Origin: Natronorubrum halophilum
Lineage (GTDB): Archaea; Halobacteriota; Halobacteria; Halobacteriales; Natrialbaceae
Reading direction: 5' to 3'
DNA length: 64,000 nt
NCBI RefSeq assembly: GCF_003670115.1
Contig: NZ_QQTY01000001.1
Span: 1,116,001-1,180,000 of the forward strand
The position numbers were made by a program, and so were the translations under genes. Position 1 is the first letter of the stretch. The number at the start of each line of letters is the position of its first letter. The notes under the pieces were generated by a model. The model saw only the letters and a program-made list of their open reading frames with translations, was not told the origin of the DNA and did not search any database. Below are positions 11,820 through 20,908 of the stretch, piece by piece.

Positions 11820-12725
11820 TCACTCGAGCGATTCGATCGTCGTCTCGAGCACCGCGAGGTCCTCGTTCAACGTGGCGCGAAGTTCGTCCCCCGCAAGCGG
11901 GAGGCGGACGCGAAGGCGGATCGGGTCGTGCTCGACGACGGCCGTGTACTCGTCGGAGACGCACCACGGCAGCGTCCAGTAGGGTCGTTCGTCGAGGGAG
12001 ACGCCGCGCTCGCGGTGGAAGCTGACGACACGGGAGTGGTCGAGCAAGCGGAGTCCGGGTGCCGAACAGAGGGTGTAGCCGCACTGGACGCACTCGTGGT
12101 CGACGCGAACCGTCGCGCCGAGACAGCACGCGCCGTCCTCCGCGATGTGCGACTCGACGCGACCGCTACACTCCGGACAGACGCCGTCGGCCGCGAGGCA
12201 GTGGAGGTGACGGACCCGTTGGTCGAAGGCGTCGGCGACCTCCTCGCGCGTCCGGTCGTTCAGCCCGCCCGGCGGGAACCCGTACTCGCCGTGGCCGTGC
12301 CCGCAGTCGGGACACGCGATCGCGAGTTGCTCGTCCCGATACCGCGCCTCGAGCGGGCCGTCGCAGGCGACGCACGAGCCCGCGACCGGGAACGGATCGA
12401 TCGTCGGGTGCTCGTTGAACGAGCCGGCGATCACCGAGCGGACGACCTTCTCGCCGGCGTGTTTGAAGTCGTAGCCCGCGTCGGTCTGGACGACGAACTG
12501 GCCGGCGAGCTTCTGGAGGTGGTAGTTGAACTGCGCCGAGTCGCGCATCCCGATCTCGCGTCGCAGCTCCGAAAACGCGACCGGACGGTCCTCGGCCGCC
12601 CACAGCGCCTCGAGGATCGACAGTCGCGTCTCGTTCCCGATCAACGCGAAGGCGTCCGCCGGGTCGAGACAGTCGGTACACTCGAGGACTCGCTCGCGGT
12701 CGCTCGAGACGTCTGATTGGCTCAT
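11820..12725 (-). CDS. winged-helix transcriptional regulator with two zinc-ribbon-like modules
   Basis: A 301-residue protein. An ArsR-like winged helix occupies about residues 15-95 (ADAFALIGNETRLSILEALW, then the recognition segment FSELRREIGMRDSAQFNYHL). It is followed by a zinc-ribbon-like module (CVACDG ... CPDCGHGHG, about 108-140) and a second Cys-rich module (CLAADGVCPECSG ... CVQCGYTLC, about 170-220), then a beta-rich C-terminal domain. This architecture is common in haloarchaeal DUF7351-type regulators. A TTG nine codons upstream is possible, but the ATG is preferred. Target genes are not evident. Confidence 0.85.
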   Translation of the reverse strand: MSQSDVSSDRERVLECTDCLDPADAFALIGNETRLSILEALWAAEDRPVAFSELRREIGMRDSAQFNYHLQKLAGQFVVQTDAGYDFKHAGEKVVRSVIAGSFNEHPTIDPFPVAGSCVACDGPLEARYRDEQLAIACPDCGHGHGEYGFPPGGLNDRTREEVADAFDQRVRHLHCLAADGVCPECSGRVESHIAEDGACCLGATVRVDHECVQCGYTLCSAPGLRLLDHSRVVSFHRERGVSLDERPYWTLPWCVSDEYTAVVEHDPIRLRVRLPLAGDELRATLNEDLAVLETTIESLE

Positions 12726-12845
12726 GAGGGTACGGACGCGGGCGGTCGACAAAATCGTTCCCTCAACGGCGTTTTTGTAAATTCTCTAATAAATATGCGA
12801 TCGTCGGAGCACGAACGGATGAGGTTGAGGCGAAGCGGGACGCTG

Positions 12846-13841
12846 TCAGGGCCGCGGTGCGGCCTTCTGGAGCGCCGTTTCTGCGATGTTCCCGCCGTAG
12901 TCGGCGCTTCGGGAGAGGGAGTCGAGAATCAGTCCGAGCGACTGTGCCTGCACGGGATCGAGGTCGCGGAGCATGTCGTCGATCGACCGGGTGTGTTCGT
13001 CGATCTCGAGGACGGACTCGAGGGCGTCGTGGCTCAGTTCGGTCGCCTCGCCGCTGTCCTCGGCGAACAGCGCGTCCATCGACTTCTCGAGGATCGCCGA
13101 GGCGTCGGCGTGGAGTTCGAGGAGCGCGCCAGCGACGTCGTCCGGAATATCTCCGAGTTTGCGGGCGAGCTGGCCGATCTTGACGGCGTGGTCGGCGACG
13201 CGCTCGAGTTGCCGGGCGCTCGAGTGGTAGTCGAAACAGTCCTCGCGGGAGACGCCGAGCGCTTCGGCGGCCCGCGGTGATCGGAGCGTCGCCCGGAAGA
13301 TGCGCGAGACGACGAGCCAGAGCCGGTCGACGTCGTCGTCGCGTTCGATCACGTCGGCGGCGATGTCGTCGTCGTTCTCGACGAGCGCGGTGAGCGCGTC
13401 CTCGAGCATCGAGGTGGCGATCAACCGCATCCGAGTGACGGCGTTGACGATCGACAGCTCAGAGGAGTCCAGGAGGTCCTGGACGACGACGCAGTCCGTC
13501 TGCTCCTCGACGACTTCGACGCCGATGAGCCCCTGAATCGCGCTGCGGATCGCCCGCCGCTGGGCCGTCGTAATGCGGCCCGCCTCGAGTTTGATGATGT
13601 CGAAGCCGCTGACGTACATCGTCAGGACGGCACGGACGAGCTGTTCGTCCTCGAGCGAGGAAACGTCGAGCGTTCCCTCCTGATGGTCGGTTTCACGCTT
13701 CGGTGTGACGAGTAGCATATCGTCTTCGGAGTAGATCTCGACGGTCGAGCCGCTACTGATGCCGTTGGTGGTCGCCCATCCTTTCGGAAGCGACACCGTA
13801 TACGTCGATCCACCGGTCACCTGGACCTTGCGTGTCTCCAT
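12846..13841 (-). CDS. SpoVT-PhoU phosphate-response regulator
   Basis: A 331-residue cytoplasmic protein with an N-terminal SpoVT/AbrB swapped-hairpin DNA-binding domain (METRKVQVTGGSTYTVSLPK onward, about 1-45) and a C-terminal helical PhoU domain (about 110-325) rich in Asp/Glu/His metal-binding positions (for example QLERVADHAVKIG). Such proteins are candidates for phosphate-dependent control of Pst transport in haloarchaea. It is transcribed divergently from pstS across a 710-bp AT-rich region. A TATA-like TTTATG about 27 nt upstream of the ATG fits a leaderless transcript. A second gene of the same architecture ends the pst operon at 19886-20908. Confidence 0.9.
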   Translation of the reverse strand: METRKVQVTGGSTYTVSLPKGWATTNGISSGSTVEIYSEDDMLLVTPKRETDHQEGTLDVSSLEDEQLVRAVLTMYVSGFDIIKLEAGRITTAQRRAIRSAIQGLIGVEVVEEQTDCVVVQDLLDSSELSIVNAVTRMRLIATSMLEDALTALVENDDDIAADVIERDDDVDRLWLVVSRIFRATLRSPRAAEALGVSREDCFDYHSSARQLERVADHAVKIGQLARKLGDIPDDVAGALLELHADASAILEKSMDALFAEDSGEATELSHDALESVLEIDEHTRSIDDMLRDLDPVQAQSLGLILDSLSRSADYGGNIAETALQKAAPRP

Positions 13842-13994
13842 ATGACACGTTTTCTATGGGGAGAACATAAACCTACCCAAATCTATAGAGTTGTTTCCAC
13901 TACTGCCGTCGATAGCGCGAGAATTGAGACGGCGTTCGCGCTGAATCGCGCCTTAAGACGCTCTAATACACCACAGACAGTATCACAATGTATC

Positions 13995-14025
13995 GATACG
14001 TACCGACATATAGGCTATATAGATA
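13995..14025. repeat. ATATAG/TACGT element cluster, phoU-proximal copy
   Basis: This stretch contains TACGTACCGACATATAG followed directly by GCTATATAGATATCC. Allowing three free bases, the first part matches TACGTGTGGATATATAG in front of pstS (common form TACGTnnnGAyATATAG). Read on the minus strand it gives GGATATCTATATAG and GGTACGT, the same words found before pstS. It is a candidate regulator-binding site; direct reading only. Confidence 0.5.
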
Positions 14026-14481
14026 TCCCGAATTTCCACCTCGATACCGAATTAGCTCGAGCGGTTGTTTTCGTCCGTACTCGAGATCGACGGTCGTTTC
14101 GGCGATTTCGACGAATCGGCCGTCACGCGGTACTCTGCCGACTGAGTCCGGATCAATCGGACCGAGTGGTCTGATCGATACCACGGGAGTTTGCGTATTC
14201 GGGGACGCGGTGACCGTCGGTCGTGAGCCGACCGAGAACGCTCCGCACCAGCAGCGTCGAAAACGCAGCCGCGACGAACGGGTACGATGTGGGAGAGACG
14301 GATCCGAACGGGCGGGTTGATTTGAACGTTATTCGGCAGGCCGGTCGGCACAATATAGTCCGTGTCGAGACAGCTGTTTTTGGAGATGAAGCACACATTC
14401 GAGAATTGTTCCGAAATTAGATTCTGTCGATTTCGTGAACTTGGGACACCTACTGCGCCAGTACTGATCTTCAACGTTCTT

Positions 14482-14509
14482 GGATATATAGGTACGTGTG
14501 GATATATAG
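14482..14509 (+). repeat. direct repeat GGATATATAG, candidate operator of pstS
   Basis: GGATATATAG occurs twice, 18 bp apart start to start, separated by GTACGTGT, and lies just upstream of the pstS TATA element. Two identical decamers at this spacing immediately before a promoter suggest a binding site for a phosphate-responsive activator or repressor. Phosphate-regulated promoters of Halobacterium carry cis elements upstream of TATA, but I cannot match a published consensus. Confidence 0.55.
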
Positions 14510-14525
14510 TAATCATAGCATCGTA

Positions 14526-14533
14526 CTTTTATC
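14526..14533 (+). promoter_or_regulatory. TATA element of the pst operon
   Basis: CTTTTATC ends 18 nt before the pstS ATG at 14552, fitting a transcript with almost no leader. It lies directly downstream of the paired GGATATATAG repeats. Confidence 0.6.
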
Positions 14534-14551
14534 ACCCGTCGTATCGTCCAC

Positions 14552-15526
14552 ATGATGACCGATAAGAAATTCGGACTGGTGGGTGGATCGGCGACAAGAC
14601 GCGGATTCCTCGCGACGACCGGGGCCGTGGGAACGCTCGCACTCGCTGGGTGTTCGGAAACCGACGCCGACGAAGATGAGGGCGGTGAAGTGGTTATCAC
14701 CGGCTCGAGTACCGTCTTCCCCGTCTCCGACGAGATGGCTCAGCGGTTCATGGACGAGAATCCGGACATCAACGTCCCGACCGACTCGACCGGCAGCGGC
14801 GGCGGCTTCGAGAACCACTTCTGCCCGGGCGATTCGGATATCAACGGCGCGTCGCGGCCGATCAAGGACGAAGAGGAGTCGAGCTGTCTGGACAACGACG
14901 TGACGCCGGTCGAGTTCGAAATCGCCGGCGACGCGCTGACGATGGCCGTCAGCCCCGACAACGACTGGGTCGATTGCATGTCCTTCGACGAGATGGCCCA
15001 GATTTGGCAGGAAGACGGCGCGGAGACGTGGGCCGACGTCAACGACGACTGGCCCGACGAGGAGTTCGAACTGTTCGGACCCGACACGACCTCCGGAACC
15101 TTCGACTGGTTCACCGAGAACGTCGTCGGCGAGGCCGGTAACCATCGCGACGACTACGAGCCGACCGAGGACGACAACCTCATCATCCAGGGACTGCAGG
15201 ACAGCCCTTACGCGATCGGCTACTTCGGCTACGCGTACTATCAGGAGAACCAGGACGCGATCAAAGCCCTCGAGGTCAAAGAGTCCGAGGACGACGAGTG
15301 TGGAGAGCCGAGTCTCGAGGCCGCACAGGCCGGCGAGTATCCGATGGCTCGCCCGCTGTTCATCTACGCGAGCGAGGAATCGATCCAGCGCGAACCGGTC
15401 TACGACTTCCTCGAGTTCTACCTCGAAAACTCGAGCGAGAGCTTCATCGCCGACGACATCGGCTACGTCCCGTCGGGCGACGACGTCCGCGAGGAGAACC
15501 TCTCGACGCTCGAGGATCTCGCGTAA
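14552..15526 (+). CDS. pstS: PstS phosphate-binding lipoprotein
   Basis: A 324-residue solute-binding protein of the Pst ABC transporter. A Tat-type signal (ATRRGFLATTGAVGTLALAG) precedes lipobox C34, so it is anchored outside the membrane. The phosphate-binding signature follows: ITGSSTVFPVSDEMAQRF, then TDSTGSGGGF, and later PDTTSGTFDWFTENV. The mature protein is highly acidic, as expected for a halophile. An ATG-ATG pair marks the start, and the TATA element sits close upstream. First gene of pstSCAB-phoU, 63 bp before pstC. Confidence 0.95.
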   Translation: MMTDKKFGLVGGSATRRGFLATTGAVGTLALAGCSETDADEDEGGEVVITGSSTVFPVSDEMAQRFMDENPDINVPTDSTGSGGGFENHFCPGDSDINGASRPIKDEEESSCLDNDVTPVEFEIAGDALTMAVSPDNDWVDCMSFDEMAQIWQEDGAETWADVNDDWPDEEFELFGPDTTSGTFDWFTENVVGEAGNHRDDYEPTEDDNLIIQGLQDSPYAIGYFGYAYYQENQDAIKALEVKESEDDECGEPSLEAAQAGEYPMARPLFIYASEESIQREPVYDFLEFYLENSSESFIADDIGYVPSGDDVREENLSTLEDLA

Positions 15527-15589: not shown

Positions 15590-16531
15590 ATGAGTAATGA
15601 TTCGGTAACTACCTCGCTAACACGAGTACAGACCGGCCGTGATGCCAAGGAGCGGTTGTATCGCTGGCTGTTGTTTTCGTGTACGGCGCTGACAGTACTG
15701 GTGACGTTGAGTATCCTCGGGACGCTCGCCTACGACACGATTACGTTCTTCGACTTCGACCACGTCGAGGTCGTCTCCTTTCTAACCGGAACGGAGTGGA
15801 ACTCGAGAACGGGAACGTTCGGGATCCTCCCGCTCGTGAGTTCGACCCTGATCGTAACTGTCGTCTCTGCCGCGATCGCCATCCCGATCGGAACCGCCGC
15901 CGCGGTCTACCTCTCGGAGTACGCCAGTCCGCGAATGCGCTCGGTATTGAAGCCAGCGCTCGAAATTCTCGCCGGGATTCCGACGGTCGTCTACGGCTTC
16001 CTGGCGCTGGTGTATCTCTCCCCGTGGCTTCGAGCGGCCGGCGTGCCGGTCGGGACGTTCAATCTATTGAGCGCGTCGATCATGGTCGGCATTCTGATCG
16101 TGCCGATGGTCTCGTCGCTCTCTGAAGACGCGATGAGCGCCGTTCCGGAGGAGCTTCGTGAGGCGGGGTACGGCCTCGGCGCGACGAAGTTCGAAGTCTC
16201 GACGAAAGTCGTCATTCCCGCCGCGGTGTCGGGGATTTTCTCGTCGTACATTCTGGCCATCTCTCGGGCGATCGGCGAGACGATGATCGTCGTGATGGCC
16301 GGCGGGATGATGGCGCGACTGCTGAACGTGACGAACCCGTTCGAGAACCTCTTCAACTCCGGACAGACGATGACCGCGGCGATGGTTCACGCGGTGACGA
16401 GCGACGCGACCGGCGCGTCGGCGGAGTTCTACAGCATGTTCGCGATCGGCCTGACGCTGTTCGCGATCACGTTCCTGATGAACCTGCTGAGCAACCGTAT
16501 CGCGGCGCGGTACCGCGAGGAGTACCAGTGA
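15590..16531 (+). CDS. pstC: PstC phosphate ABC transporter permease
   Basis: A 313-residue inner-membrane permease. After one N-terminal helix (about 30-55) comes a BPD-type permease domain with five further helices. The cytoplasmic EAA-type coupling loop is visible in EELREAGYGLGATKFEVS, followed by VVIPAAVSGI and AISRAIGETMIVVM, the last being a Pst-permease signature. It pairs with PstA to form the channel energised by PstB. It lies 63 bp after pstS and 48 bp before pstA. Confidence 0.94.
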   Translation: MSNDSVTTSLTRVQTGRDAKERLYRWLLFSCTALTVLVTLSILGTLAYDTITFFDFDHVEVVSFLTGTEWNSRTGTFGILPLVSSTLIVTVVSAAIAIPIGTAAAVYLSEYASPRMRSVLKPALEILAGIPTVVYGFLALVYLSPWLRAAGVPVGTFNLLSASIMVGILIVPMVSSLSEDAMSAVPEELREAGYGLGATKFEVSTKVVIPAAVSGIFSSYILAISRAIGETMIVVMAGGMMARLLNVTNPFENLFNSGQTMTAAMVHAVTSDATGASAEFYSMFAIGLTLFAITFLMNLLSNRIAARYREEYQ

Positions 16532-16579: not shown

Positions 16580-18304
16580 ATGGCGGGACGGACCGACCGA
16601 TCGACCGCCGACGACTGGTTCGATACCGGCGAAGAGATCGGCCGAACACGGGGGATACTGTTCAAGTGGTTCTGTCTGGGTGCGACGATGCTCGCACTCG
16701 GCTTGATGCTGGTATTCCTTCTGTACGTCGCTAACGACGCGTTCCAGCCACTAACGGCCGACCCGATGTGGCTGGGCCTGTTCGGACTGGTTGTGATCGC
16801 GCCGGCGTTCGTGTTCGCCGCGTACGTATACCGAAACGAATCCCAGGCAGGACGGGTCGCCTACACGGCACTCGGCCTTCCACTCGTCGCGACGCTGGCG
16901 GCCGGCGGCATCTGGATCGTCTTCGCCCACATCGTCACGCCCCACGAGTGGTTCGCGTTATTCCTCTCACTGCTCGCCGCAGCCGCCGTCATCGAGGGAC
17001 ACACTCGAGTCCGGCCGGACGTCGTTCTCGAGCGGTTGGGCGTCGTCGTTCTCGTCCCGTTGCTCGCGCTCGTCGGGATTCCGGCGATCAGCATCGACGT
17101 TCTGGTTCGGACACCCCTTCTCGGACAGGAACTGTTTCGAGTCGACCTCTCGACGCCGGAACTCCTGCCGAGCGTTCGGGCGGTGATTCTCTCGTTGCCG
17201 GTACTCCCGGCACCGGGTCTCGTCCTGCTTGGAACGGTCGCTGTCCCGATTGCAGCCGCGATCGGGTGGCACATTCGTCGCGTCCGCGAGAGCGAGCGCG
17301 ACGGGGCGGTCGCGTTCGGAGCGACGGCTGCCCTCGCCGGAGTCGGCCTCGCTACCGCGCCAGCGGTCGGTATAACGACGACAACGTGGATCCTCTTTGC
17401 GACCATCGTCGGCGGGGCCTGCGGGCTGTACACCGAACACGTCCTCCGACGCCGCGAGGGGACGATTGGACTCGCGTTTCCGATCGTCGTCGCAGTCGGG
17501 TTCGCGCTCCTGTGGGCACTCGCGGGAACGCTCGGCGTCGCCGGGCCGGACTCCTGGCTCAACTGGTCGTTCCTGACCAGTCCACACAACACGACTGCAA
17601 CCGAGGCCGGAATCTATCCCGCCCTCGTCGGCAGTATTTTGATCCTCGTCGTGATCGTTATCTCGGCGTTCCCCATCGGCGTCGGTGCGGCGATCTACCT
17701 CGAAGAGTACGCGCCGACGCAGGGACGCATGAGCCAGATCGTCGAGCTCATCGAGGTCAACATCGCGAACCTCGCCGGCGTTCCCTCGGTCGTGTACGGC
17801 GTCCTCGGCCTCGCAGTCTTCATCAGGGTGATCGGCATGGAAAACGGGACGGCCCTCGTCGGCGGCCTCACCATCGGACTGTTGATCCTCCCGATCGTGA
17901 TCATTTCGGCCCAGGAGGCGATCCGTTCGGTGCCGGATTCCCGGCGTAATGCTGCCTACGGTATGGGCGCAACGAAGTGGCAAACCGTTCGAGGTGTCGT
18001 CCTCCCCGAAGCGATTCCGGGCATCCTCACCGGAACGATTCTCGCGCTGGGGCGTGCGATCGGCGAAACGGCGCCGCTGTTGATGATCGGCGTCCCCGCC
18101 GTCGTTCGAACCTCGCCCAACTCCTTTACGAGTCGAACCGGAGCGATGTCGCGACAGATCTACACCTGGTCGACGCAGATCGGGGTCGACTTCCGGTACG
18201 GCGTGCTCGCGGCGGGCGTCATCACGCTGCTCGTCGTCCTGCTCACGATGAACGCGACCGCGATCGTCCTCAGAAACCGCTATCAGCGAACCCAGAACGG
18301 GTAA
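16580..18304 (+). CDS. pstA: PstA phosphate permease with long membrane insertion
   Basis: A 574-residue permease, about twice the usual PstA length of roughly 280-300. The canonical domain is in the C-terminal half (about 325-565), with the coupling loop [20 protein letters not shown] and the signature [14 protein letters not shown]. The N-terminal half carries TM1 (about 25-48) plus roughly seven additional helices before the extracytoplasmic loop [16 protein letters not shown]. Enlarged PstA proteins occur in haloarchaea; the role of the extra helices is unknown. The stop is 2 bp before pstB. Confidence 0.92.
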
Positions 18305-18306
18305 CG

Positions 18307-19209
18307 ATGACTCAAAACGATCCATCCGCGTCCGATCCAACCGGACGTCAGACAGCGAACGAGACGGCTGGTATCGAGCTCTCCACGGGAGACAACACCG
18401 CCTCGAGCGTGGAGACGGGACCCGAATCGACCGTCCGCCACCAGACCTCGACGGTGTCCGATCCGATCGTCGAAGCGAGGGACCTCGACGTGTACTACGG
18501 GGACGACCGCGCGTTACAGCAGGTCGACCTGGCGATTCCCGAGCGCAACGTGACGGCACTGATCGGTCCGTCGGGCTGTGGAAAATCGACGTTCTTGCGC
18601 TGTATCAATCGGATGAACGACCGCATCGAGAGCTGCCGCATCGACGGCAAGGTCCAGTTCGACGGAAAGAACGTCTACGACACTGACGTCGACCCCGTCG
18701 CCCTGCGCCGGAAAATCGGCATGGTGTTCCAGCAACCGAACCCCTTCCCGAAGTCGATCTACGACAACGTCGCATTCGGCCTCGAGGTCCAGGGCATCGA
18801 TGACGACGTCGACGAGCGAGTTCACACGGCACTCGAGCGTGCCGCGCTCCTGGAAGAAGTCGAAGACCAACTCGAGTCGTCGGGCCTCGACCTCTCGGGC
18901 GGCCAGCAACAACGCCTCTGTATCGCCCGCGCCATCGCTACCGATCCCGACGTGATCCTGATGGACGAGCCCGCGTCGGCGCTCGACCCCGTGGCGACCT
19001 CGAAGGTCGAAGACCTCATCGCCGACCTCGCTCGCGATTACACCGTCGTTATCGTCACCCACAACATGCAACAAGCGGCCCGCATCTCGGACAAGACGGC
19101 CGTCTTCCTCACCGGCGGCGAACTCGTCGAGTTCGACGAGACGGAGAAAATCTTCGAGAACCCCGAGCACGACCGCGTCGAGGACTACATCACCGGCAAA
19201 TTCGGCTAA
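18307..19209 (+). CDS. pstB: PstB phosphate ABC transporter ATPase
   Basis: A 300-residue ATPase energising phosphate import. Walker A is GPSGCGKST at 87-95, the signature LSGGQ at 196-200, Walker B VILMDEP at 216-222, and the switch His is in [10 protein letters not shown]. The first 55 residues are a polar, Ser/Thr/Glu-rich extension ahead of the ABC domain, probably disordered. [13 protein letters not shown] segment is typical of PstB. The ATG is 2 bp after the pstA stop. Confidence 0.95.
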
Positions 19210-19211
19210 TC

Positions 19212-19886
19212 ATGGCACGAAACGAGTATCAACAGCAGCTCGCGGACCTGCGCGAACGCGTCCTCGAGATGAGCGACCTCGTCTGTCGGCAACTCGAGCG
19301 AGCCCTCGAGGCTCTCGAAGCGAAAGACGACGAGCTGGCCGACCAGATCATCGCGGGCGACCACGAGATCAACGAGCTGTATCTCGACCTCGAGCAGACC
19401 TGTATCGAGTTGCTCGCGCTCCAACAGCCCGTTGCTGGCGATCTGCGATTCATCGCCGCGTCATTCAAGATCAGCACCGACCTCGAGCGAATCGGCGACC
19501 TCGCGGTCAATCTCGGGGAGTACACCAAGCAGGCCGAACGCGAGCGCTACTCCGAGATCGATATCGCCTATATCGGTGAGCAGACGATCGAGATGGTCGA
19601 GGCGGCGATGGCGGCCTACGAAGCCGACGATGCGACGACGACGCGAGATATCGCGGCGATGGACGACGAGATCGACGCGCTCTGTGAGGGTGCGAGCGAG
19701 ATCGTCGTTCGAGACCTGCTCGAACTCGAGACCGCGGTCGAGAAGTTCGGTGACGAAGCGCTCCTCGAGGACGTCTCGCGGATGCTGTTGACGGTCCGCG
19801 ATCTCGAGCGCGTCGGCGATCACGCGGTGAACATCGCCGCGCGAACGCTGTACATGGTCGAAAACGACGACGAACTGATCTACTGA
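19212..19886 (+). CDS. phoU: PhoU phosphate signalling protein
   Basis: A 224-residue all-helical PhoU protein with two three-helix repeats. It carries metal-site motifs of the family: FKISTDLERIGDLAVNLGEY and MLLTVRDLERVGDHAVNIAA, each with the D-x3-R-x2-D and E/H positions. PhoU proteins connect Pst transport with phosphate gene regulation. No two-component PhoR/PhoB genes are visible here, as is usual for haloarchaea. It starts 2 bp after pstB, and its stop codon shares one base with the start of the next gene. Confidence 0.94.
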   Translation: MARNEYQQQLADLRERVLEMSDLVCRQLERALEALEAKDDELADQIIAGDHEINELYLDLEQTCIELLALQQPVAGDLRFIAASFKISTDLERIGDLAVNLGEYTKQAERERYSEIDIAYIGEQTIEMVEAAMAAYEADDATTTRDIAAMDDEIDALCEGASEIVVRDLLELETAVEKFGDEALLEDVSRMLLTVRDLERVGDHAVNIAARTLYMVENDDELIY

Positions 19887-20908
19887 TGAGTCACCACTCG
19901 CTGTCCGACGGCGCGGCCGATCCCATCGAACGGAAGGTCCAGTTGACCGGCAACTCCACGTTCGTCGTCTCGTTGCCGAAAGCGTGGGCGCTCGATCAGG
20001 GCCTCGAGTCCGGGATGTCGATGTACCTGTATCCGCACGACGACCGGGTCGTGGCCGCCCCGGAGCACGTCTCGGGTCGCGATCGGTCGGTGACGATCGA
20101 GGCGACGGCGGTCGAGGGACGAACGGTGGTACAGCGGGTTCGCGCGGCATACACGACGGGATACGATCGAATTACGGTCACCGGAACGGACCGCCTCGAG
20201 GCGGACACGCGACGGGAGCTCGAGCGAACCGTCAGTCGGCTGATCGGCATCGAAATCCAGGACGTGACCGACGATCAACTTTCGATAGCGAACCTGCTCG
20301 ATGCCAGTGAGGTCTCGCTTCCACAGACGGTCGCGCAGGCGCGACAACTCGCGCTCGAGTTACACGGTGACGCGGTCGACGCCCTCCTGTCGAACGACGA
20401 CGAACTCGCACGACAGGTCCAGAACCGGAACGGCGACGTCGACCGACTGTTCGCGTTCGTCAGTCGGGGGTTCCACCGCGGGCTCGAGGACGTGCGGGAG
20501 GTCGGTCAGTTGGAAACCGATCGGACGGTCGCGTTTCGCGAGTACCGGATCGCGCGCCAACTCACGCGAATCGCGGACCGCGCGGATCGGATCGCGGCCG
20601 TCGCGCTGCGCCAGTCCGATCCGCCGGACGACGCGCTCCGCGAGCGGATCGAACCCGTCACGACCGATACCCGGACGGTCGTCGACGCGGCGCTGGCGGG
20701 TGAGTTCCGGTCCGCGACCGAGACGCATTCGGCCGTTCGTGCGTCTCTCACGTCGCTCAACCGGCAACTGCACGGTCGATCCGACGCTGACGCGCGGTTG
20801 TACAGGTCGGTGTTCGACGCCCTCCGGCAAACGGCCGATATCGGCGTCGAAATCGCCGAGACGACGCTCGAGGCGAGCGTCGCGGAGCGAGAAACGAGAG
20901 TACCGTGA
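19886..20908 (+). CDS. second SpoVT-PhoU regulator
   Basis: A 340-residue protein with an N-terminal SpoVT/AbrB domain (RKVQLTGNSTFVVSLPKAWA, about 10-55) and a C-terminal PhoU-type helical domain (about 120-330). It has the same architecture as the gene at 12846-13841 but is clearly divergent from it. It begins with an ATGA overlap on the phoU stop, so it is translated with the pst operon. Likely a DNA-binding phosphate regulator; which promoters each paralogue controls is unknown. Confidence 0.88.
   Translation: MSHHSLSDGAADPIERKVQLTGNSTFVVSLPKAWALDQGLESGMSMYLYPHDDRVVAAPEHVSGRDRSVTIEATAVEGRTVVQRVRAAYTTGYDRITVTGTDRLEADTRRELERTVSRLIGIEIQDVTDDQLSIANLLDASEVSLPQTVAQARQLALELHGDAVDALLSNDDELARQVQNRNGDVDRLFAFVSRGFHRGLEDVREVGQLETDRTVAFREYRIARQLTRIADRADRIAAVALRQSDPPDDALRERIEPVTTDTRTVVDAALAGEFRSATETHSAVRASLTSLNRQLHGRSDADARLYRSVFDALRQTADIGVEIAETTLEASVAERETRVP

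Follow-up and report, generated by a model that had tools for sequence, protein, structure and literature searches.

Archaeal phosphate control is little worked out, and haloarchaea possess PhoU proteins. Bacterial PhoU has no DNA-binding domain fused to it and works through PhoR/PhoB, and the Pho box is built of CTGTCAT-type direct repeats. In H. salinarum, both pst promoters carry pho-boxes, described as PhoU-regulator binding motifs that are essential for upregulation (Furtwangler et al. 2010, cited in the accessible part of PMC6560208). The same partial source reports the pst operon of Haloferax volcanii, HVO_2375-2378, as leaderless, and the accessible part of PMC6267482 names no operator for HVO_2374 (PhoU2) of this species. 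In Halobacterium, PhoU and Prp1 were grouped with phosphate transporters, and SirR was favoured as this group's more general regulator (accessible part of PMC1502140).

The element described here was found in a 64,000-nt stretch of the Natronorubrum halophilum genome, hereafter termed the window, between a pst operon and a divergent gene for a fused AbrB-PhoU protein. Compared by description and position with the partial account of the pst1 and pst2 pho-boxes of H. salinarum R1, it is likewise a pst-operon promoter element, in the same class. As with the bacterial PhoB Pho box, short direct modules recur with a period of roughly one helical turn immediately 5' of the pst core promoter, but the sequence is different, and inspection by eye of 14482-14533 found no CTGTCAT-type repeat. 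A search of the literature outside most subscription journals returned no recognised account of the box sequence or of an AbrB-PhoU operator. As far as the searched literature shows, this kind of element was already known from one species, and what is new is its class-wide form and consensus, its tight association with pst genes and its copies in the AbrB-PhoU promoter, including one near -160.

Organisation of the divergent locus

The start codons of AbrB-PhoU and pstS are separated by 710 bp (13842-14551), as previously annotated. On the minus strand, positions 12846-13841 encode the 331-residue AbrB/SpoVT(MazE-like)-PhoU protein (PF04014 and PF01895, with a PhoU fold), which is the candidate regulator; just beyond it, on the same strand, lies the gene of an HTH protein containing DUF7347 and DUF7351 (11820-12752). 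The plus strand carries pstS, encoding a phosphate-binding lipoprotein (14552-15526, PF12849), two PF00528 permease genes assigned by order to pstC (15590-16531) and pstA (16580-18304), the ATPase gene pstB (18313-19209, PF00005, scanned from 18313 with a provisional start codon), phoU (19212-19886, PF01895 in two stretches, 145.8 bits) and a gene for a second PhoU protein with an AbrB-like N-terminus (19886-20908, PF01895), which aligns with the 331-residue protein at 35% identity. With the product of 19886-20908, the locus encodes three PhoU proteins; the N-terminal portion of this product can be aligned with the AbrB portion of the 331-residue protein, but Pfam recognises PhoU only. A second pst locus of the host genome (L268; G000:C1:172500-184500) also contains pstS, pstB and a divergent AbrB-PhoU gene.

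In the intergenic region, the first-pass annotation had pointed to a 17-mer, TACGTnnnGAyATATAG, occurring near 14000 and again before the pstS TATA box, and to a direct repeat at the latter site. Both copies of the 17-mer were confirmed on the plus strand, at 13997-14013 and 14493-14509, as was the direct repeat of GGATATATAG at 14482-14491 and 14500-14509, with a spacing of 18 bp. Allowing one mismatch, the window contains two matches to the 17-mer where shuffles predict 0.01, and the 4.67-Mb host genome contains only these two copies; since the motif was derived from its two sites, this rarity is no independent test and comparison with relatives was relied on. With no further host-genome copy, the 17-mer was dropped as a conserved unit. 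A relaxed half-box, TAYNTANNNNTATATAG, fared no better with one mismatch, giving 11 matches in the host genome versus 20 for a reversed control; its sole zero-mismatch match is at pst2. Two of the one-mismatch matches outside the pst/AbrB-PhoU loci were inspected (C1:181747 and C1:639880), and none of the five query proteins gave a BLAST match at or adjoining either of them; the nearest such match to C1:181747, ~3.7 kb away, is the second AbrB-PhoU. Two elements had previously been overlooked, CATAGCA at 14514-14520 and ATCTATAGAG at 13881-13890.

Structure, conservation and specificity of the pst box

The pst box extends over 14482-14533 of the plus strand, as delimited by alignment and by a model match of 45.6 bits, and comprises TATATAG modules, TACGTG, CATAGCA and the pstS TATA box. 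The first GGATATATAG of the direct repeat (14482-14491) is followed by TACGTG (14493-14498), an upstream TA(C/T)nTA-type module whose window copy ends in TG, by the second GGATATATAG, which constitutes the central TATATA module (14500-14509), and by CATAGCA (14514-14520), which abuts the TATA box 38 nt 5' of the pstS start codon. The probable TATA box, TACTTTTAT (14524-14532), was identified by its position, and its spacing to the ATG is compatible with a leaderless pstS transcript. Among relatives, the pst-side box takes the approximate form TA(C/T)nTA-n4-TATATAg-n4/5-CATAG(C/T)A before a TATA box, ~38 nt from the pstS start; in the alignment, the TACGT of the earlier 17-mer is the TAYnTA module, and CATAGCA is the better conserved half of the element.

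Conservation was assessed in 106 regions chosen from the listed pstS matches in the genus and family. A regular expression, written after the first sequences had been viewed, required a TATA box preceded by CATAG(C/T)A or a near variant, and TATA or ATAC immediately 5' of the latter; it recognised the box in 100 of the 106 pstS upstream regions. Both pst operons of the host carry it, so that, like the pho-box, it lies in the pst-operon promoter; a motif search upstream of orthologous pst genes, which had been proposed with the 17-mer, thus reveals a conserved element. A stricter first expression recognised fewer boxes (77/106) because it excluded TACTTA. The six regions without a match are L021, L030, L065, L069, L070 and L072; in the last three, CATAGTAG precedes the TATA box but no TATA occurs within 16 bp upstream. 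From CATAG to the start codon the distance is 38 nt in 64, 37-42 nt in 93 and 24 nt in two of the 100 boxes, five of which have no determined start. In a minority the internal gap is shorter, the nearest TATA standing 7 nt before CATAG (14/100).

Aligned columns of the 87 long-spacing boxes display, in order, TA(C/T)nTA, TATATA, (T/A)CATAG(C/T)A and TAyTT. Part of the invariance of TATA and CATAG comes from their use in the selection; the TAYnTA module stands outside the selection, and its columns carry 0.4-1.6 bits, with the strict form TAYNTA in 45 of the 87 boxes. The 18-bp repeat of ATATA, although present in the window, is generally rare (10/87, the window's box included). Among 24 named loci, a box-like pattern was observed in three Halobacterium sp. 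(L233-L235) and in one Haloferax elongans, while matches at L239, L241, L242 and L243 are unconvincing boxes and 11 loci have no listed match to the expression (L237, L240, L244-L247, L249, L251, L252, L254 and L255); in 8 of the 24, the protein match begins 44-61 residues into the query and the true start was not located.

Specificity was evaluated with a sequence-only model (R1) of 29 pst boxes, all from the window's family and including the window's own. In the host genome, at E-values up to 10, the model has two matches only, which correspond to pst1, the window's box and a model sequence (2.1e-11), and to pst2, which is outside the model (2.1e-6). Across a sample of the class, matches at E up to 0.1 were found in 238 of 292 genomes and 69 of 77 genera, which is a lower bound because the filters were strict; 54 genomes had no match under them. 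Forty further matches, at none of the pstS places already known and 26 of them outside the family, were fetched from those listed. The downstream protein is PstS in 30 and PstB in 8 of these by blastp and PstB at L155 by tblastn, such that 39 of 40 precede pstS or pstB by BLAST; at L169 it is a lipoprotein without a blastp match that resembles PstS by eye only. This tie to pst genes marks a pst element, unlike a general strong promoter, and the box provides a signature for locating pst promoters class-wide.

In several genomes the pst box also precedes a pstB gene, so that the ATPase gene has its own copy; examples are L146, L147, L148, L150, L151, L153, L155, L156 and L173. At the second pst locus of the host, pstB may also own a box (CATAGTACGCTATTTAT upstream).

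Proximal and distal elements of the AbrB-PhoU promoter

The main element of the AbrB-PhoU promoter is the CTATAG-type site at 13881-13890, which reads CTCTATAGAT in the sense of the gene (minus strand) and lies ~47 nt before the start codon. It is followed by GTTTATG (13866-13872, minus strand), which position and alignment identify as the probable TATA box at leaderless spacing. Most of the 49 AbrB-PhoU/pst divergent regions contain CTCTATAGAT or a close form and then an ATTTATA-type TATA box. A regular expression located a CTATAG/TATATAG proximal site 40-62 nt from the start, with a mode of 47, in 61 of 69 family promoters (9/9 in compact loci, 35/40 in expanded loci and 17/20 in other AbrB-PhoU promoters of the family, whose genes were picked from the matches listed). 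In other families, a TATATAG/TATATAT-like site occurs at ~47 nt in 17 of 20 AbrB-PhoU promoters and is absent from L277, L280 and L286. A second model (R2), of 31 proximal promoters including the window's, matches the host genome at 13853-13892, spanning the proximal element, with 31 bits, plus one weak extra match (13.7 bits, E 0.24). In the host genome the pst box is missed by R2 and the AbrB-PhoU proximal site by R1, which indicates that the two sites are related but not identical. At the second AbrB-PhoU of the host, the proximal site is degenerate and was missed by R2.

The site near 14000 comprises TACGTACCGACATATAG and then CTATATAG (13997-14022, no strand assigned), at distances of 172 and 181 nt to the start of AbrB-PhoU. 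Alone it is a weak half match to R1 (8.2 bits, E 0.16 for the window). In 38 family divergent regions, the best match to the upstream half-box was scored relative to dinucleotide shuffles; it reached p ≤ 0.05 in 24 regions, in 22 of which it is situated 143-157 bp from the start of AbrB-PhoU. Counts of TATATA, CTATAT and ATATAG over 65 non-redundant AbrB-PhoU promoters display a single clear peak at 150-169 nt and are near-empty at 190-400. Within 150-169 nt, a range chosen after the distal-site positions were seen, a site is present in 22 of the 36 expanded regions left after removal of redundancy, compared with a mean of 1.1 and a maximum of 4 in 500 shuffles, and in all 14 AbrB-PhoU promoters whose nearest 500 nt are free of a pst box, compared with a mean of 0.62 and a maximum of 3 in 500 shuffles; the latter are L213-L226, 12 of the 14 coming from one genus (g16). 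Adding the second AbrB-PhoU of the host, which has CTATATAG 161 nt upstream, and two more expanded regions gives 37 of 53 (shuffle mean 1.9, maximum 7). By regular expression, 15 of 40 expanded regions lack the site. The window's copy is displaced by 10-20 bp, about one to two helical turns beyond the mode.

In compact loci, the pst box itself is 148-160 nt from the AbrB-PhoU start (9/9), and at L229-L232 a full pst-type box occupies the distal position in the same manner (21-27.5 bits). The distal site of L219 is a half match to R1 of 14.5 bits, while in L227 and L228 a pst-like box lies ~400 nt off and the distal site is absent. In other families no separate -160 copy was observed in 20 AbrB-PhoU promoters, 13 of which have a recognised pst box with CATAG 157-312 nt from the aligned start. 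Distal-to-proximal spacings cluster at 110-116 bp with a mode of 114; a strict helical-phase rule is not claimed, given outliers at 89-109 and 134 and the different arrangement in other families. Weaker conserved GTA/TAC columns ~15-40 bp to the gene side of the distal site are possibly more half-sites.

The copies held at 150-169 nt, those of unlinked promoters included, assign the site near 14000, on sequence grounds, to the AbrB-PhoU promoter and not to pst. The site is less likely to be what remains of an older pst box, since all 14 unlinked promoters keep one and the CATAG/TATA part is unconserved at the expanded sites. The first-pass annotation had viewed the two 17-mer sites as operators for a regulator common to both sides. 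Related elements do occur at pst and at AbrB-PhoU, and the site near 14000 agrees with a position-conserved AbrB-PhoU element of the family; conservation does not extend to the 17-mer as such, and the main AbrB-PhoU element is the proximal one. A shared operator on both sides of the divergent region is, by these comparisons, well supported.

Two explanations that dispense with operators were considered. That AT-rich repeats arose by chance in a long intergenic stretch might be suspected from the low complexity of the sequence, from the excess of relaxed half-boxes in the reversed control and from the weak model match of the site near 14000; positional conservation of the pst box in the pstS regions, the class-wide R1 matches and the distal peak contradict this explanation, whose probability we regard as negligible. 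Alternatively, the TATATA modules could be extra TATA boxes yielding leadered transcripts, as TATATA is itself TATA-like and H. salinarum pst1 reportedly uses two promoters. A separate TATA box stands at leaderless distance in both the pst and the AbrB-PhoU promoters, R1 has no other match in the host genome, the -160 copy holds its distance to the gene with weakly conserved neighbouring columns, and the Haloferax operon is reported as leaderless (accessible part of PMC6560208), all of which make extra TATA boxes very improbable. The comparisons thus suggest that the TATATAG elements are a real and widely conserved control site before the phosphate-uptake genes and before the gene of their likely regulator. 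As the site precedes both gene sets, one switch probably controls both.

The candidate regulator and its proposed action

AbrB-PhoU shares the PF04014 domain of AbrB/SpoVT/MazE-type proteins, at residues 7-50 (44.2 bits versus a cut-off of 24.7), and differs from them in the fusion of this domain to a middle segment (~55-122) and a PhoU domain (PF01895, 75.1 bits versus a cut-off of 23.5). The predicted structure (mean pLDDT 83.9) displays strands and helices in the middle segment, followed by the helical PhoU domain. Ten fold matches had E ≤ 0.001, nine described as PhoU or PhoU-like and one, 1sum, as a hypothetical protein, in agreement with membership of the PhoU family. No AbrB structure was named among the 50 fold matches listed or in a PDB sequence search. 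The N-terminus is poorly modelled, with residues 1-13 below 50; blocks of residues 1-50 in the monomer model have pLDDT values of 35-73, a low confidence for the question of a swapped-hairpin dimer. In sequence, the N-terminus is almost invariant among orthologues and well kept in the 35%-identical paralogue at 19886-20908. Orthologues were identified in 125 of 125 family genomes (E up to 1e-90) and in 291 of 292 class genomes (E up to 1e-70); the exception, G286, a single case, is also outside the listed R1-positive genomes. These properties make the SpoVT/AbrB-PhoU protein the best candidate for binding the boxes.

It is moderately probable, in our judgement, that the elements are several copies of a haloarchaeal pho-box, bound by AbrB-PhoU, which would control both pst and its own gene. 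Its N-terminus, of AbrB/MazE type, would contact the modules in dimeric or higher multimeric form, the PhoU part would report phosphate status, and the protein would control pst transcription and regulate itself. At pstS, the TAYnTA, TATATAg and CATAGyA modules would present binding sites ~10 bp apart; because they end at the TATA box, a bound protein would contact the same surface as TFB and TBP. At the AbrB-PhoU gene, a like half-site (CTATAG/TATATAG) at about -47 by the TATA box would serve, to which the family often adds a copy at about -160. Binding may be cooperative, and a loop or bridge may join -160 and -47.

It is rather unlikely that another factor, such as a winged-helix or another PhoU protein, binds the operators and that AbrB-PhoU is merely a target or co-regulator. 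The assignment to AbrB-PhoU does come from comparison of sequences, and the HTH gene (DUF7347/DUF7351) adjoins AbrB-PhoU in the window and is conserved there in some relatives. This gene was found within the 1.5-kb flanks at 9 of 30 AbrB-PhoU loci only, the window's included, against AbrB-PhoU in almost every class genome, and it was rejected as the regulator; within the set of genes examined, the regulator gene with the element is that of AbrB-PhoU.

For regulation by AbrB-PhoU, activation under low phosphate is the preferred sign, because upregulation in H. salinarum is reported to require the pho-boxes. AbrB-type proteins are frequently repressors, and CATAG abuts the TATA box, so that a protein positioned there could obstruct TFB or TBP. 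On the same boxes, AbrB-PhoU might therefore act as a repressor that, in phosphate excess, covers CATAG/TATA at pst and bridges -160 and -47, and that starvation releases. We hold this somewhat doubtful, and the essential role of the pho-boxes in upregulation speaks against it (Furtwangler et al. 2010, cited in the accessible part of PMC6560208).

In a further proposal, offered tentatively, the class Halobacteria would possess a one-component phosphate switch in AbrB-PhoU. Its PhoU module, fused to a DNA-binding hairpin, would read phosphate status; the protein would bind TATATAG/CATAG arrays in helical phase, both at pst and at the promoter of its own gene, where it would bridge -160 and -47 at the modal spacing. 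In compact loci, the two divergent genes would share a single array; in the window's family, with its expanded intergenic regions or unlinked genes, the regulator gene would have retained a copy of its own. The boxes at about -38 (pst), about -47 (AbrB-PhoU) and -160 at unlinked regulator genes offer a short list of testable mutations. In L004 and L005 (G008 and G001), the two top-scoring pstS relatives, a PstB-PhoU pair lies directly 5' of pstS and splits it from AbrB-PhoU.
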